Part shown: positions 9,188 through 54,006 of the stretch, piece by piece
Position numbering within the stretch: position 1 is the stretch's first letter
Layout of the letters: every line of letters begins with the position of its first letter
Source: Undibacterium piscinae
Lineage (GTDB): Bacteria; Pseudomonadota; Gammaproteobacteria; Burkholderiales; Burkholderiaceae_D
DNA length: 64,000 nucleotides
Assembly: GCA_003970805.2 (NCBI GenBank)
Contig: CP051152.1
Location: 248,001-312,000 of the forward strand
Direction: 5' to 3'
Made by a program: the position numbers and the translations under genes
Notes under the pieces: generated by a model
Told to the model about the DNA's origin: nothing
Databases searched by the model: none
What the model saw: only the letters and a program-made list of their open reading frames with translations

Positions 9188-9769
9188 TCAGGACCGGCGT
9201 GACGTCAGGTCGGCTGGTGGCTCGTCGCCCGCCAGCACGCCGTTAGTGAGCGGGAGTCCTTCGCCTTTGCGCACCAGATAGTCGGTGTGCTCATAGACAT
9301 TGGGGCAACCGGTTTCGGCGATCAATGCCTTGATGATAGTCACTTTCCAGGCATCGACACCGGCAGCCTGAAACTGGCAGCTCAGAAAGCCCGGTTGTAA
9401 CGCGTGATAATCGACGATCAGGCCGGGCAGGCCGTCTTCTTCCGCATTGATCAGGCGTTGCGGGCGGCCTGGGATGGCGCTGAGTTTCTTGCGCTTGGCC
9501 AATGCCGCCTTGACGCGTCGCTTGAACATGGCGTGGTCGACCGCTTCGCTTTCGTCAAAGCTCCAGACCCGTGCCCGGATCTGTGATTTCGGAGCCCAGC
9601 CTGCGCGCGCCAGAAACTGACCGGAAGACGAGCGCACCACAGCGGTGGCGCCTGACTTCATTCTTTCATCGAATTTGCCATCGACCCTTTCTATTGCGGA
9701 TAGATAAATCCAGGGCTGCTGTTCCAGCAAACTTTTTTCCTTGCCTTGTTTGATGGTGATGATGAGCAT
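9188..9769 (-). pseudogene. Truncated RlmI-like rRNA methyltransferase (N-terminal half only)
   Basis: The 193 codons match the N-terminal half of RlmI/YccW-type 23S rRNA (cytosine-5) methyltransferases. They include a PUA domain (LEQQPWIYLSAIERVDG) and the linker region (PGRPQRLINAEEDGLPGLIVD, then an EHTDYLVRKGEGLP segment). Intact members are near 390-400 residues. Here the frame reads GDEPPADL and then stops after five unrelated residues (TSRRS). The SAM-binding and catalytic domain is absent and not found in the following 370 bp. The product would keep an RNA-binding fold but could not methylate. This is a real deletion or an assembly loss rather than a simple frameshift. Confidence 0.75.
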
Positions 9770-10668: not shown

Positions 10669-10740
10669 GGAGTATCTGAGCTTATGCCTGGTGAACGCTT
10701 TAGTTGTCTGCGTTTCTGGCGTTGATGTGTAGATACTCCC
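10669..10740. repeat. Repeat-family copy C (inverted arrangement)
   Basis: GGAGTATC at 10669-10676 and GATACTCC at 10732-10739 bound a 72-bp stretch between maf and the RsmI-like gene. The end motifs are those of the other dispersed elements but point the opposite way. The right end abuts the frame-corrected stop of maf (10741-10743). Confidence 0.3.
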
Positions 10741-11353
10741 TTAGGTAAAGAATGATACGCGAAGCTTCCTGAGCATGCCTGTGAGCGCGATTAGGGGCAG
10801 GCCGGTGAGTGCGGTCGGGTCGTCGCTGACGATTTTTTTCAAGTATGGCGATTCCCAGTGCTTCGTTCTTGGCGCTGCCGGCGCAATCGTAGGGCTGCTC
10901 TATGCGTAAATAGGCATCGAGCTCAGCATCGCTGAGGTCACGGAAATGCACCAGCGTCTGTATGTTTTGGATGTCAAATCCTTTGGTTTCGCTATCGGAG
11001 CGGCAGTCGAGTACGCATAGGGCGGTATGAAAGACCACCTGTTTGCCGCGCATTTTCTGTAATTGGAGTAAGGCGGCCGCATGGTTGCCGGGCTTGCCTA
11101 TTTGCTCGCCGTCTAGCGTGGCGACCTGATCCGAGCCTATAATGATGCTTTCCGGATGTGTGGCGGCAATTGCGACCGCTTTCTCATGCGCTAACCGCAT
11201 GGCAGTCTGCTCCGGTAGTTCGCCGGGGCGGGCGCTTTCATCGATGTCTGGCGCTATGCTCTCGAATGGCAATTGCAAGCGCGACAGCAATTCGCGCCGG
11301 TAGGCTGAGCTTGATGCTAAAATGAGGCGGTATGGCAGTGGTGTAAGTGGCAT
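10741..11353 (-). CDS. maf: Maf/YceF nucleotide pyrophosphatase (frame interrupted)
   Basis: Hydrolyses non-canonical or modified nucleoside triphosphates. Family motifs are LILASSSAYRRELLSRLQLPF at the N terminus, IIIGSDQVATLDGEQIGKPG, and YDCAGSAKNEALGIAILEK. After LEK the uninterrupted frame turns to unrelated residues and reads on to 10700. Dropping one base from the run of seven T (10833-10839; A on the coding strand) restores IVSDDPTALTGLPLIALTGML, the normal Maf ending, with a stop at 10741. That gives about 203 residues, the usual length. It diverges from yceD. Confidence 0.8.
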
Positions 11354-11466
11354 TTTGTGTGATTTTTTTACAAATAAGCATAAGTTACGTCAATTATTGC
11401 GGCAAGTCTTTGACTAATAAGCGGCAACCCTGTTATTATCGCAGGTTTTCTGGGTCCAAATATCCT

Positions 11467-47446: not shown

Positions 47447-48333
47447 ATGACTATGATACAAGGAAGCCTGGTTGCTATTGTGACCCCTATGCACGCTGAC
47501 GGCAGTCTCGATTTGCCTTGTCTGCGCAAGTTAATTGATTGGCATATTGCTGAGGGGACTGATGGCATTGTGATCGTCGGTACTACTGGCGAATCGCCGA
47601 CCGTGAATGTGGAAGAGCATTGCGAGTTGATACGCGTAGCAGTGGAGCACGCCAATAAGCGTATTCCCATCATTGCCGGTTCTGGCGGCAATTCGACTGC
47701 GGAAGCGATAGTATTAACGCAGTTCGCAAAAAAAATATCGGTGCTGATGCCTCCTTGCAGGTAGTTCCTTACTACAATCGCCCTACCCAAGAGGGTATGT
47801 ATCAACATTTTAAAAAAATCGCGGAATCGGTTGATATTCCTGTGATTCTGTATAACGTGCCGGGACGTACCGTTGCCGACATGTCCAATGAAACCATCCT
47901 GCGTCTGGCTCAGATTCCCGGCATTATCGGCGTCAAAGAAGCAAGCGGCAATATCGCCCGCGATACCGATCTGATTCGTCTGGCACCAGAATCCTTCGCG
48001 GTTTACTCCGGCGACGATGCAACCGCCATGGCATTAATGTTCTGCGGTGGCAAGGGTAACATTTCGGTTACTGCCAACGTTGCGCCGCGTGCCATGCATG
48101 AGTTGTGTGTCGCTGCGATGCGCGGCGATATCAAGGAAGCGATTGCGATCAATAACCGCATGATTCCTTTGCACAATAAATTGTTCATTGAGCCAAATCC
48201 TTTGCCGGTTAAGTGGGCAATGATGGAAATGGGTCTGATTCCTACCGGTATGCGTTTGCCTTTGGTGCCTTTGTCCGAGCAATATCATGAAACGGTTCGT
48301 GCTGCGATGCGTGAGTCAGGTATTTTGCAATAG
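47447..48333 (+). pseudogene. dapA: 4-hydroxy-tetrahydrodipicolinate synthase, frame interrupted
   Basis: First step of the lysine / diaminopimelate branch. The N-terminal part ([43 protein letters not shown]) is in one frame and stops at 47764. The rest ([28 protein letters not shown] with the Schiff-base Lys, up to ESGILQ) is in another. The break is at an 8-A run (47728-47735) followed by TATC. Removing two bases, or adding one, restores the family sequence and gives about 294 residues, the usual length. Because DapA is normally essential, a sequence error is a serious alternative to true inactivation. Confidence 0.85.
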
Positions 48334-48411
48334 TGTTATGGTAGTGGGTAGACGTTGCGCGCCTGGACGCTATTTTGATTTTAATTGATACTAATTCGTA
48401 GGGACTTTCAC

Positions 48412-49626
48412 ATGGCGAAAAGCTTTGTTGTTAAAAATGGAATGCATCGTGCTTTGCTGCTGGCTAGCATAGTTGGTTTGGGTGGCTGTAGTTCTGTTGG
48501 CGTTGAGCCTAGTCGCATTGATTACAAGAGTGCCAGTAAGGTCACAACGGCCCCTTTAGATGTTCCTCCGGATTTAACCCAGATACGCAGGGATAGTCGG
48601 TTTGCTATTCCTGAGGCAAATCAGGGAAGTGCTACGGCATCTAGCTACAATTTGCAAAGAAATAGCGCGACTCCGGTTGCGGCGACTGGCTTGGTTGCTT
48701 TGAATCAAGTGCAAAATATGAAAATTGAGCGCGATGGTTCGCAGCGCTGGTTGGTTGTCAAACAATCGCCAGAGGCGTTATGGCCTTTGCTGAAAGACTT
48801 TTGGCAGGATCTTGGCTTCCTGATCAACGTGGAGCGCCAGGAGGCGGGCGTCATGGAGACCGATTGGGCGGAAAACCGTGCCAAGATTCCGCAAGACATG
48901 CTGCGTAATACGTTAGGTAAAGTGCTCGACTCCCTGTATTCGACTGGTGAGCGTGATAAATTTCGTACTCGGATAGAGCGTGCCCCAAATGGTGATGTGG
49001 AAATTTACATTAGCCACCGTGGTGCGCAAGAGGTGCTGGTTGGTACGCAGAAAGATAGCACCAGTTGGGCGCCAAGACCGTCCGATATTGGCCTGGAGGC
49101 TGAATTCCTGGCTCGGTTGATGGTGCGTCTGGGTTCTGATAGTGAGCGTGCCAAGGTTGCCGTCAGTTCGGCTGCGCCGGTCAAAGCGCGTTCGCAATTG
49201 TTAAAAGATGCGACAGTCAATTACGTGCAGACCGATGAGGGCTTTGATCGTTCATGGCGTCGCGTCGGCCTGGCTTTGGATCGCATAGGCTTTACTGTTG
49301 AAGATCGCGATCGTTCGCAGGGCTTGTATTTTGTCCGTTACATCGATCAGGATATTGAGGCGAAAACCAAGGGTGCCAGCGATGGCATGCTATCGAAGTT
49401 ATTCTCATGGGGCGGTAGTGATGCGACCAAGGCATCCCAGAAATATCGTGTTCTGGTGAAAGAGTCGGGAGAACTTAGTCGTGTTACCGTGCTCAATATA
49501 TGTGAGTTGCCGAAGGGGGGGCGGGTGCTCCAAGGGTGGTTGCTAAAGGTGCGGATGCCGTTGCTGCAAAAATTCGTGAGTTGGCGGCCGAACATAATAT
49601 TCCCTTACTTGAAGCTCCTCCGTTAG
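48412..49626 (+). CDS. bamC: BamC lipoprotein with a foreign C terminus
   Basis: Outer membrane assembly lipoprotein of the Bam complex. The start at 48412 (MAKSFVVKNGMHRALLL) leads to a lipobox, VGLGGC. Family features follow up to the last helix-grip segment (WRRVGLALDRIGFTVEDRDRS, KYRVLVKESGELSRVTVLN). After VTVLN (about 49497) the family ending is lost. The frame continues for about 43 unrelated residues, which are a shadow of flhB coding sequence in another frame. The gene is therefore fused to flhB DNA. Only the last 15 or so native residues seem to be missing, so the lipoprotein may still fold. Confidence 0.8.
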   Translation: MAKSFVVKNGMHRALLLASIVGLGGCSSVGVEPSRIDYKSASKVTTAPLDVPPDLTQIRRDSRFAIPEANQGSATASSYNLQRNSATPVAATGLVALNQVQNMKIERDGSQRWLVVKQSPEALWPLLKDFWQDLGFLINVERQEAGVMETDWAENRAKIPQDMLRNTLGKVLDSLYSTGERDKFRTRIERAPNGDVEIYISHRGAQEVLVGTQKDSTSWAPRPSDIGLEAEFLARLMVRLGSDSERAKVAVSSAAPVKARSQLLKDATVNYVQTDEGFDRSWRRVGLALDRIGFTVEDRDRSQGLYFVRYIDQDIEAKTKGASDGMLSKLFSWGGSDATKASQKYRVLVKESGELSRVTVLNICELPKGGRVLQGWLLKVRMPLLQKFVSWRPNIIFPYLKLLR

Positions 49627-49823
49627 CTCGGGCTTTGTATACGCATACGGAACTCGGAGATGAAATACCAGAAACATTATATGCAGCTTTGCAGAGGTGC
49701 TTGCTTATGTATTTCAGTTGCGTGGTTTTCGGCAGAATGGTGGTATACGCGCCCGTAGAGCCTTCTGAACTCTACGTACCCGCCGAATTGGATCCGAATA
49801 ATCGAGCTGGGGTTGTCTCATGA
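49498..49823 (+). pseudogene. flhB: 3' remnant of flhB (export gate protein), with two indels
   Basis: Encodes the end of the cytosolic domain of FlhB, the substrate-switch protein of the flagellar export gate: GAPRVVAKGADAVAAKIREL, HNIPLLEAPPLARALY, then ELGDEIPETLYAA. The membrane domain and the NPTH autocleavage site are absent, because bamC sequence lies upstream. Near 49688 one base seems to be missing and near 49752 one extra. Between them the right reading is AEVLAYVFQLRGFRQNGGIR, and after the second site the frame returns to PVEPSELYVPAELDPNN. The stop overlaps the flhA start (ATGA). It cannot give a working FlhB as it stands. Confidence 0.8.
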
Positions 49824-51906
49824 ATGCTTTAAAAGTTCCGGCCTGGATGGGAGGTATTGCTGGAAAGGCGTTGGCGGCTCCGATTCTCATTATCATGATG
49901 CTGGCAATGATGATCTTGCCTTTACCTGCTTTTGTGTTGGATGTGTTTTTTTAGCTTCAATATAGCACTGGCAATTATCGTTTTGTTGACCAGTTTGTAT
50001 ACGGTAAAGCCACTTGATTTTATGGTTTTTCCTACGGTCTTGCTGGTAAGTACGATGTTGCGTTTGTCATTAAACGTGGCGTCAACTAGGGTTGTTCTGA
50101 CCGAAGGGCATACCGGGCCGGATGCTGCAGGTAAGGTTATCGAGGCCTTCGGTCATTTTCTGATTGGCGGAAATTACACGGTAGGTATTGTTGTTTTCAT
50201 TATTCTTACGATTATTAATTTTACGGTTGTTACCAAAGGTGCCGGGCGCATAGCTGAAGTTGGCGCTCGTTTTGCATTGGATGCGATGCCAGGTAAGCAG
50301 ATGGCGATCGATGCAGACTTGAATGCCGGCTTAATTGCAGAGCAAGAGGCGCGCCGACGTCGGACCGAAGTCGCGCAGGAAGCAGAATTTTATGGCGCGA
50401 TGGATGGTGCAAGTAAGTATGTGCGGGGTGATGCTGTTGCCGGCATTCTGATTACCATCATTAATATGGTCGGTGGACTCATAGTTGGCATCGTTCAGCA
50501 CGATCTGGAATTTGCCACTGCATTAAAAACCTATACCTTGCTCGCTATTGGTGACGGTCTTGTGGCACAAATTCCTTCTTTGATCATCTCGACTGCAGCG
50601 GGTATTGTTGTTTCAAGGGTGGCCAGTGATGAGGATATTGGCGGGCAATTAATTGACCAGTTATTTGCGAAACCACAGGTTTTGCAAATAACTGCGGTGA
50701 TTGTCGGTGGTATGGGCATTATTCCTGGTATGCCACACGTCGCCTTTCTTTTGTTGGCGGGTATTTTGGCTGGTGGCGGATATCTGCTCACAAAGAAATC
50801 ACAGGAAGAAATTGCTATTGAACCCAAAGCGGAGGTTCCGGTGGCTGCACCTGAGATGGAGGAGGCTACCTGGCAAGATATATTACCTGTCGATACTCTC
50901 GGGCTTGAAGTCGGATATCGACTTATCCCATTGGTGGATAAGACTCAGGGTGGGGAATTATTAAAAAGAATCAAAGGGATACGGAAAAAATTTGCACAAG
51001 AAGTTGGATTTTTGTCGCCTCCGGTACACATTCGTGACAATCTGGAATTAAAGCCATCGTCCTATAGAATTACTTTGAAAGGGGTTGAGGTTGGGAACGG
51101 CGAGGCAAATACCGGACAGTATTTGGCGATTGATCCAGGTATGGTTTCTGGTACCTTGCCGGGGGTGCTTACTACTGATCCTGCATTTGGATTGCCGGCC
51201 GTTTGGATTGACGCTAGTGTGCGAGAGCAGGCTCAAGCGATGGGTTATACGGTGGTTGACGCCGGGACTGTGATTGCAACGCATCTAAATCACTTAATAA
51301 CAACACACGCAGCAGAATTGCTTGGTCGTCATGAAGTGCAGCAATTGTTAGATCACCTGGCAAAAAGACACACCAAAATTAATTGAGGACTTGGTTCCTA
51401 AATTGCTGCCGTTGTCAACGTTGCAAAAAGTATTGCAGAATCTTTTAATTGAAGGGGTGCATATACGCGATATGCGAACGATTATTGAGACATTGTCCGA
51501 ATTTGCAATGCAAACCCAAGACGCAAATGAACTGACCGGATGTGTGCGTATCGCCTTGGGCCGGGCTATCGTTCAACAAATTTTTTCTTCCAGTAATGAG
51601 TTGAATGTAATGACGTTGGATAATCGACTTGAACGCTTGTTAATGCAGGCATTGCAGACCAGCGGTTCTGACGGTGCGGGAATTGAGCCGGGACTTGCTG
51701 ATACCTTGACCAGTCAGACTGAGGCGGCAGCTCAGCATCAAGAGCAAATGGGATTGACGCCGGTTCTGTTGGTGCCGAACGCATTGCGAGCCTTGTTATC
51801 ACGCTTTCTGAGGCGTACGTTGCCGCAATTGAAGGTGTTGTCGCATTCGGAAATCCCAGAATCAAAAACAATTAGAGTCACTAGTTTGGTTGGAGGTCAA
51901 TTATGA
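49820..51906 (+). pseudogene. flhA: Flagellar export gate protein FlhA, two frame breaks
   Basis: FlhA forms the export channel and cytosolic ring of the flagellar secretion system. The protein is complete but in three frames. Part 1 (MNALKVPAWMGGIAGKALAAP to VLDVFF) stops at a run of seven T (49946-49952). Part 2 (SFNIALAIIVLLTSLYTVKP, the FHIPEP region VTKGAGRIAEV and MPGKQMAIDADLNAG, and most of the cytosolic domain) ends at a 5-A run (51362-51366). Part 3 continues PKLLPLSTLQKVLQNLL to the end. Removing one base at each run gives exactly 694 residues, the family length. Confidence 0.88.
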
Positions 51907-53171
51907 ATGTGAGAAAATTTTCTGCGAATACTTCGCGCGAGGCAATCCGTATGCTTCGGGATACGCTTGGGTCAGACGCAGTTATTCTATCGAACCGTAT
52001 TGTGAATGGACGCGTAGAAATTTTGGCAATGGCAGATGAGGCTATCAGTTCAATCTCATCGCCTGTTAGTGTTGATGCTCCCGTTCCGGCCACGCCAAAG
52101 TTTGCACCAAGAGCAAATTCAGATTCGGGAGCGGATGCAACATTACTTAATGACTCTGTTGCTTATAAAAATGATGGCAATTTTAGTGTCTCGGATATGT
52201 CAGATGTCATGAGCGAAATTCGTTCAATGAGAGGGATGCTGGAGTCTCAGTTAGCCGAACTTTCATGGGCAAATACGCAAAAGCGGCAGCCTCAAAAAGC
52301 TGAAATATTAAGGGAGATGCTGGCAACCGGATTTAGTGCGAGTTTGTCTCGCTACTTGGTTGACAAAGTTCCTGAAGGTGAGCTTGCGTCTAATGGCATG
52401 GGATGGATCAAGTCAATTCTTGCCAATAATTTGGCCACTATCACTAATGAAAGTGAGATTTTGGAGAAGGGCGGTATCTACGCTTTGGTAGGGCCCACTG
52501 GAGTAGGTAAGACGACGACTACCGCAAAATTGGCTGCTCGTTGTGTGATGCGCCATGGACCTGCGAATTTGGCCTTGATTACGACGGATGCATACCGTAT
52601 TGGCGGTTACGAGCAGTTACGCATATATGGAAAAATTTTGGGCGTAATGGTGCATTCGGTGAAAGATGAGGCGGAACTGCGTATTGCACTATCTGAGCTT
52701 AAGAATAAGCATACAGTTTTAATTGATACTGTAGGTGTCGGTCAAAGAGATAAAATGGTCACGGAGCAAGTGGCGATGCTTTCTGGATGTGATGGCAATG
52801 TAAAGCGTTTACTTTGTTTAAATTCCACATCGACCGGAGAAACGCTTAGTGAGGTGGTGCGTGCATATCAGGGAAATGGCTTGGCAGGTTGCATTCTTAC
52901 TAAGCTTGATGAGGCGGCAACTATCGGCGGGGTGTTAGATATTGCAATTCGCCAGAAATTAAGTATTTATTACGTGGCGAGCGGTCAGCGTGTTCCGGAA
53001 GACTTGCATTTGGCCAATAAACTGTACTTGATTGATCGAGCCTTTAAGCTTAAGCGGGAGACTGCCGCATTCAAATTTTTGGATGATGAGTTGCCTATGT
53101 TGATGGCGAATGCAGGCCTTGGCTCACGAAATTATTCGATAGATAGTCGCAAGGAGGTGTCTCTTGGCTAG
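51903..53171 (+). CDS. flhF: Flagellar SRP-type GTPase FlhF
   Basis: GTPase that sets the place and number of polar flagella. The 422-residue protein has the basic N-terminal B domain (MNVRKFSANTSREAIRMLRD), a linker, the N domain, and the G domain with P-loop GPTGVGKTTTTAKLAARCV (about 200-218), TTDAYRIGGYEQL, LIDTVGVGQRD and TKLDEAATIGG. The start overlaps the flhA stop (ATGA). Followed by flhG, as in most bacteria with FlhF. Confidence 0.95.
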   Translation: MNVRKFSANTSREAIRMLRDTLGSDAVILSNRIVNGRVEILAMADEAISSISSPVSVDAPVPATPKFAPRANSDSGADATLLNDSVAYKNDGNFSVSDMSDVMSEIRSMRGMLESQLAELSWANTQKRQPQKAEILREMLATGFSASLSRYLVDKVPEGELASNGMGWIKSILANNLATITNESEILEKGGIYALVGPTGVGKTTTTAKLAARCVMRHGPANLALITTDAYRIGGYEQLRIYGKILGVMVHSVKDEAELRIALSELKNKHTVLIDTVGVGQRDKMVTEQVAMLSGCDGNVKRLLCLNSTSTGETLSEVVRAYQGNGLAGCILTKLDEAATIGGVLDIAIRQKLSIYYVASGQRVPEDLHLANKLYLIDRAFKLKRETAAFKFLDDELPMLMANAGLGSRNYSIDSRKEVSLG

Positions 53172-54006
53172 TTTTGACCAGGCGGAGGGATTGCGCCGAA
53201 TGTTGGAGGGATCGAAGCCACGCGTTTTGACTTTTCTTTCTGCTTTGCGGGAGGAGGAAAAGAGTGAAATGTTAATTAACCTAGGTGCGTCACTTGCAAG
53301 GCAAGGGCAGCAGGTGTTAATGGTGGATGGTCGTTCATCACAAAATAGCATAGGTGCATGGCTGGACGCTGATATCGAGCGGACCTTGTTGGATGTTGCT
53401 AGACAACAGCGTACAATGGAAGATGCGATAAAAGTAATATCGGCGGGTTTGTCGGTGACCATGCTTTCTAAATACTCCTTGGCTTCAACTAGCCTTCCGG
53501 CGGAAAACGCTCGTCGACTGTCCCGAGTATTCGATGTGGCGGTAAAACGTTCGGATTTGGTTATTGTCGATGCCGAAATTGATGTCTGTGATGCATTTCC
53601 TTTGGCGTCACTAGATGATAGTGACGTTGTAGTTCAAATGTCTGGTAGCGCTATTTCAATTAAAACGGCGTACGGACTGATTAAACGGGTCAACAGTCGA
53701 GTTGGTCGGCGTTCTTATGGTATTTTGGTGTCAGGCGCCACAGAAAAGGAAGCTCGGCTTGTCTATGCAAATATGGCTCAGGTGGCTAGTCGATATCTTG
53801 CCGTGCCATTACATTTTGTAGGTTTTGTACCTGAAGATGATCATATGAAGAAAGCTGCGCATTTGGGCCGTTCGGTAATAGATGCATTTCCATTGGCTGG
53901 AGCATCCTTGGCATTTTCACGTTTGGCAGAGCAATTCTCACAGGTTGCACGATCAACTTTTGGCTTGGAAAAGTTTCCTGATTTAGGTGCTCGTCTAGAA
54001 ATATAA
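53164..54006 (+). CDS. flhG: FlhG/FleN-like MinD-family protein lacking Walker A
   Basis: Normally a MinD-type ATPase that limits flagellar number by acting with FlhF. The 280-residue protein keeps the overall FlhG form: an N-terminal DQAEGLRRML helix, VLMVDGR, VKRSDLVIVDAEID, SAISIKTAYGLIKRV and FVGFVPEDDHMKKAAHLGRSVIDAFP. However, the nucleotide loop position reads VLTFLSALREEEKSEMLIN, with no KGGxGKT. It probably does not bind ATP in the usual way. The start is TTG at 53164, supported by AAGGAGG six bases upstream; it overlaps the end of flhF. Confidence 0.85.
   Translation: MASFDQAEGLRRMLEGSKPRVLTFLSALREEEKSEMLINLGASLARQGQQVLMVDGRSSQNSIGAWLDADIERTLLDVARQQRTMEDAIKVISAGLSVTMLSKYSLASTSLPAENARRLSRVFDVAVKRSDLVIVDAEIDVCDAFPLASLDDSDVVVQMSGSAISIKTAYGLIKRVNSRVGRRSYGILVSGATEKEARLVYANMAQVASRYLAVPLHFVGFVPEDDHMKKAAHLGRSVIDAFPLAGASLAFSRLAEQFSQVARSTFGLEKFPDLGARLEI

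Follow-up and report, generated by a model that had tools for sequence, protein, structure and literature searches.

The gene for the lipoprotein BamC in Undibacterium piscinae breaks off shortly before its end and is followed, in a different reading frame, by the 3' part of the flagellar gene flhB, which raises the question of whether the bacterium itself lost the DNA in between or whether this DNA was lost from the assembled sequence. The window analysed is a 64,000-nucleotide stretch (C1:248001-312000) of the single 4,186,344-bp (~4.19 Mb) contig of this genome (G000); positions below are window positions unless given in kb, marked C1 or assigned to G015 and other genomes. The main comparison genome was a relative within Undibacterium (G015), and a genus set of 43 genomes was searched for both protein families (PF06804 and PF01312), with 35 of these counted as good genomes (at least 90% complete, at most 5% contamination).

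The join is present in the sequence, much as the initial annotation had read it, with BamC up to about 49497 and FlhB in another frame from about 49510. bamC (48412..49497, + strand) starts with an ATG at 48412 and stays in frame to 49497, with no internal frame changes in the alignment to G015. Nucleotide homology to the G015 gene stops at 49497/49498, where the last 23 codons are gone, and the same frame continues to 49626 as a tail without recognised homology. The protein matched PF06804 with 144.7 bits over profile positions 7-301 of 323, short of the full NlpB/DapX lipoprotein domain; the match in the 38 other genus genomes that have one ends at profile positions 319-321, which bears out the earlier claim that the BamC C terminus is missing. 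The join itself (49498..49511, no strand assigned) consists of 14 bases without a clear match to either side. In-frame FlhB homology (EGGAGAPRVVAKG) begins at 49512, and the flhB 3' part (49512..49825, + strand) covers only the C-terminal part of PF01312 (profile positions 270-332 of 335, or 278-332 for a shorter ORF). Its first matching residue, E, corresponds to residue 292 of 402 in the G015 protein, in which the FlhB autocleavage site NPTH occupies residues 280-283; the window sequence restarts eight residues past NPTH, and the membrane domain and the cleavage site are therefore absent, again as first described. The whole contig was searched for an FlhB with a membrane domain and NPTH ahead of the cytosolic domain and none was found; it contains one match each to PF01312 and PF06804 and no second match to either. 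A BamC-FlhB fusion protein was rejected as a candidate because the two reading frames differ.

The genes around the join carry several smaller lesions. Upstream, dapA (47447..48333, + strand) has a frameshift near 47728 (+2, in an A8 run), and its G015 orthologue passes TIGR00674. The flhB 3' part is frameshifted near 49689 (-1) and 49751 (+1), and flhA (49822..51906, + strand) near 49946 (T7 run) and 51362 (A5 run). Two genes further downstream (51903..54006, + strand), which we take to be flhF- and flhG-like, showed no frame changes when aligned and are colinear in G015.

In G015, bamC and flhB are intact, adjacent and on the same strand, with their domain matches about 0.5 kb apart, and the dapA-bamC-flhB-flhA region has the same gene order and flanks as the window. 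Between the flanking BLAST matches the window has 23 bp where G015 retains 1,383 bp (L061:8837-10219), comprising the last 23 BamC codons, the intergenic region and FlhB codons 1-291 including NPTH. The two flanks of the join are 75% and 73% identical to G015 at the nucleotide level and both look native. Window positions 722-63998 are colinear with G015 positions 4,103,001-4,167,733, with only small gaps separating the matches, and 63 of the 64 G015 ORFs have a match in the window. Given the adjacency of the two genes in G015 and this colinearity, the loss is local and amounts to about 1.4 kb. Separately, a 193-aa ORF at 9188-9769 (191 aa in G015) resembles, by eye, the N-terminal half of an RlmI-type methyltransferase. 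The missing parts of bamC and flhB were sought elsewhere in the assembly, as had been proposed, and no substantial copy of the 1,383 bp was found in the 4.19-Mb contig: at E up to 10 the G015 segment gave 40 matches, the best of 36 bp and the longest of 45 bp. Nineteen of these short matches, including the best seven, fall in one palindromic stretch of the G015 bamC-flhB intergenic region (L061:9061-9131), which matches G000 on both strands and is perhaps a REP-like repeat. A terminator-like hairpin was also seen by eye in this intergenic region.

Full-length FlhB was found in all but three of the 43 genomes of the genus; G000 lacks it, as do two genomes with an estimated completeness of 56% and 65%. 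Of the 35 good genomes 34 carry it, with G000 as the sole exception. Flagellar loss would therefore be unusual in the genus, though possible. A short extra FlhB C-domain match occurred in 39 of the 43 genomes (e.g., L098:11954-12247), 38 of which also have a full-length FlhB, and the G015 orthologue of this stand-alone gene had its best match to TIGR00789 (flhB_rel; 97.7 bits, below the cutoff of 117.35). The G000 copy lies at ~465.8-466.0 kb and is split over three frames. The stand-alone protein likewise has the cytosolic domain without the membrane part, but the window fragment lies directly before flhA, in the place of the true FlhB, whereas the stand-alone gene lies elsewhere in G000; an identification of the fragment, which abuts flhA, with the stand-alone gene was rejected by position.

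Frameshifts were not confined to this locus. Over 384 kb of G000 compared with 387 kb of G015 (protein matches of at least 60% identity), 27 of 289 matched G015 proteins (336 queried) were frame-split in G000 and 11 more were covered over less than 80%; in the reverse test, 4 of 298 matched proteins (352 queried) were frame-split in G015 and 10 were covered over less than 80%. Eighteen of the 27 frame-split genes were compared with NCBIfam. RseP, DapA, PurL, Maf, FliP, FliE and a GGDEF-domain protein passed the cutoff of at least one model; the best match of ParE was below cutoff (696.1 bits against 723.35), other below-cutoff best matches include P-II and FliH, and two of the 18 had no family match. 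Essential functions are expected of ParE, RseP and DapA, and the excess of frameshifts relative to G015 thus extends to such genes, as an artefact would have it. Another gene of the DHDPS family is present in G000, with a matched part that scored 158.6 bits, below the dapA cutoff of 206.15.

Sixteen genes, the six around the join and ten picked from the 27, were aligned for indels. The alignments showed 18 internal frame-changing indels: 11 are +1 or +2 changes within homopolymers of A or T at least five long, and the seven that do not fit this pattern are in flhB, maf and fliE (two each) and purL (one). Within the window, frame changes were limited to maf, dapA, flhB and flhA. maf (10700-11383), frameshifted near 10850 in an A run, has the only one beyond the dapA-flhB-flhA group. 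Five shifts fall within 3.6 kb (47728-51362), three of them in A/T runs, a clustering with a Poisson tail of 1.4e-5 against the local background, uncorrected for the choice of window.

Length differences of more than 300 bp occur in the 384 kb, in favour of G015 at 19 places and of G000 at two. Eighteen of the 19 were inspected (one near 430.1 kb was left out); clean losses between genes at some of them may be true differences, and many other large gaps sit at the edges of the near-identical tracts described below or between genes. A join at ~336.4 kb cuts genes between native-like flanks, like the bamC-flhB join: the first 72 codons of a presumably YgiQ-like gene and roughly the first 338 of its divergent neighbour are absent, and a short repeated segment lies between the two genes. 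By eye, the sequence at this join and at another (465.6-467.1 kb) appears partly duplicated or scrambled across frames. At the latter (C1:465582-467099), no tblastn match was obtained for the 3' end of a fliD-like gene or for its neighbours, which we take to be fliS-, fliT- and fliK-like, and the one FliS (PF02561) match in the contig lies elsewhere, below cutoff. For the 18 joins analysed (all but one of the 19 places at which G015 is longer; positions of joins and frame changes entered by hand), 11 of 29 frame changes lay at a distance of 2.5 kb or less, against 6.2 expected (p = 0.056), and 9 of 27 against 5.3 expected when the bamC-flhB join was left out (p = 0.082). A concentration of frameshifts near joins is therefore suggestive only.

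A second kind of irregularity was a mosaic of tracts nearly identical to G015. Identity between the two genomes over the 384 kb is mostly 65-87%, with four short matches of 89-94% beside the near-identical tracts, of which five are 99.5-100% identical (397, 3,018, 5,395, 19,362 and 3,193 bp; C1:239216-239612, 362089-365106, 388367-393747, 405240-424601 and 432543-435727, respectively). The identity comparison placed all of them outside the window and none inside it. A sixth tract of 472 bp has 97.7% identity. The 19,362-bp tract has no mismatch to G015; a single mismatch was found in each of the tracts of 472 bp, 5.4 kb and 3.2 kb, together with 10, 25 and 9 gap positions, respectively, none of them more than 360 bp from a tract edge. 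At several such edges G000 has truncated versions of genes that G015 carries complete, in one example with 110 of 669 residues left, and in an ORF at C1:361652-363628 the beginning of one gene is fused to the final part of a different one. Two kilobases of the 19-kb tract were found at 100% identity in G000 and G015 only among the 43 genomes, with 69% over 257 bp in genome G038. The simplest reading of these tracts would be cross-contamination or mixed libraries. Recent transfer, e.g., by a mobile element, is conceivable; judged by eye from their sequence starts, the ORFs of the 19-kb tract do not look like those of a mobile element.

Taken together, the sequence comparisons make it quite probable that the bamC-flhB join arose as a dropout during assembly or consensus calling. 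The dapA-bamC-flhB-flhA order shared with G015 is retained, and the roughly 1.4 kb that separates bamC codon 371 from flhB codon 292 in G015 would have dropped out during contig building, with noisy, partly mixed reads as the putative source of the loss. This reading is supported because both genes are intact and adjacent in G015 with colinear flanks, because of the excess of frame-split genes, RseP, DapA, PurL and ParE among them, with 11 of 18 frame changes in A/T runs, because five shifts cluster around the join, because G015-identical tracts and scrambled-looking joins occur elsewhere in the contig, and because 34 of the 35 good genomes keep full-length FlhB. The join presumably shares its cause with the other lesions of the assembly. 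Gene-fragmenting errors of long-read bacterial assemblies are described in two reports as small indels, often homopolymeric, that split conserved genes (PMC12007338; PMC8812927), and the indels that split otherwise conserved genes in G000 are of this kind. Beyond the indel errors covered there, G000 lacks about 1-2 kb within some genes and carries tracts that a second genome shares identically. Against a dropout stand the native-looking flanks, the lack of a G015-identical tract in the window and the clean bamC side, as well as the fact that only three of the five local shifts lie in A/T runs and that frameshift enrichment near joins is weak. The suggestion of a chimeric assembly made in the initial annotation was accordingly borne out in part: the contig is noisy and mosaic, but the sequence flanking this join looks native on either side.

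A real 1.36-kb deletion in the isolate, perhaps fixed in laboratory culture, is the main alternative and appears unlikely. It would leave BamC minus 23 residues, destroy FlhB and render the strain non-flagellated, and even then most of the nearby frameshifts would be sequencing errors or early decay. A local loss is the simplest change, the contig has no substantial copy of the missing piece, and fliP, fliH, fliE, the stand-alone flhB-like gene and the fliD region are damaged too; the damage to the fliD 3' end and its neighbours could instead mean a real flagellar loss. Like lesions in parE-, rseP-, dapA-, purL-type and YgiQ-like genes nevertheless count against a deletion, as do the 11 of 18 listed frame changes in A/T runs and the scrambled sequence at another join, which is unlike decay. 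It is also doubtful that, following such a deletion, the strain has lost flagellar export and 23 BamC residues, with a dispensable BamC C terminus and other flagellar genes mostly undecayed. This cell-level consequence, with flagellar export lost and a truncated BamC kept, had been put forward at the outset for the case of a real join and stays hypothetical.

A deletion or misjoin uniting two distant loci, the third reading, is very improbable and largely refuted, since both genes are intact neighbours in G015, arranged as in the window, whose sequence is colinear with G015 on either side of the join. The suspicion was reasonable because, by hand count, 17 of the 19 genus genomes that have bamC and flhB on one contig show a distance of about 12 kb to 1 Mb between the two loci, and the genes are adjacent only in G015 and G000. 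Neither flhB nor flhA was found at any of 80 named bamC loci (more than 1.5 kb of downstream sequence for 75 of them and more than 5 kb for 63), while both positive controls showed flhB/flhA. The nearest bamC loci with a species name come mostly from Undibacterium. The comparison of neighbourhoods in relatives went against the initial proposal of two distant loci: the genes are mostly apart in the genus, adjacent in the relative with which the window is colinear, and only a local loss of about 1.4 kb is needed.

For the biology of U. piscinae, a dropout would mean that bamC and flhB are most likely both intact in the living cell. Because many frameshifts, gaps inside genes and stretches identical to a different Undibacterium genome were seen in 384 kb of this contig, the single-contig genome is unsuited to claims of gene loss or motility before it is checked against reads. 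The join is most likely ordinary and not a sign of real flagellum loss, and even a real join would be an unremarkable mutation causing loss of motility.
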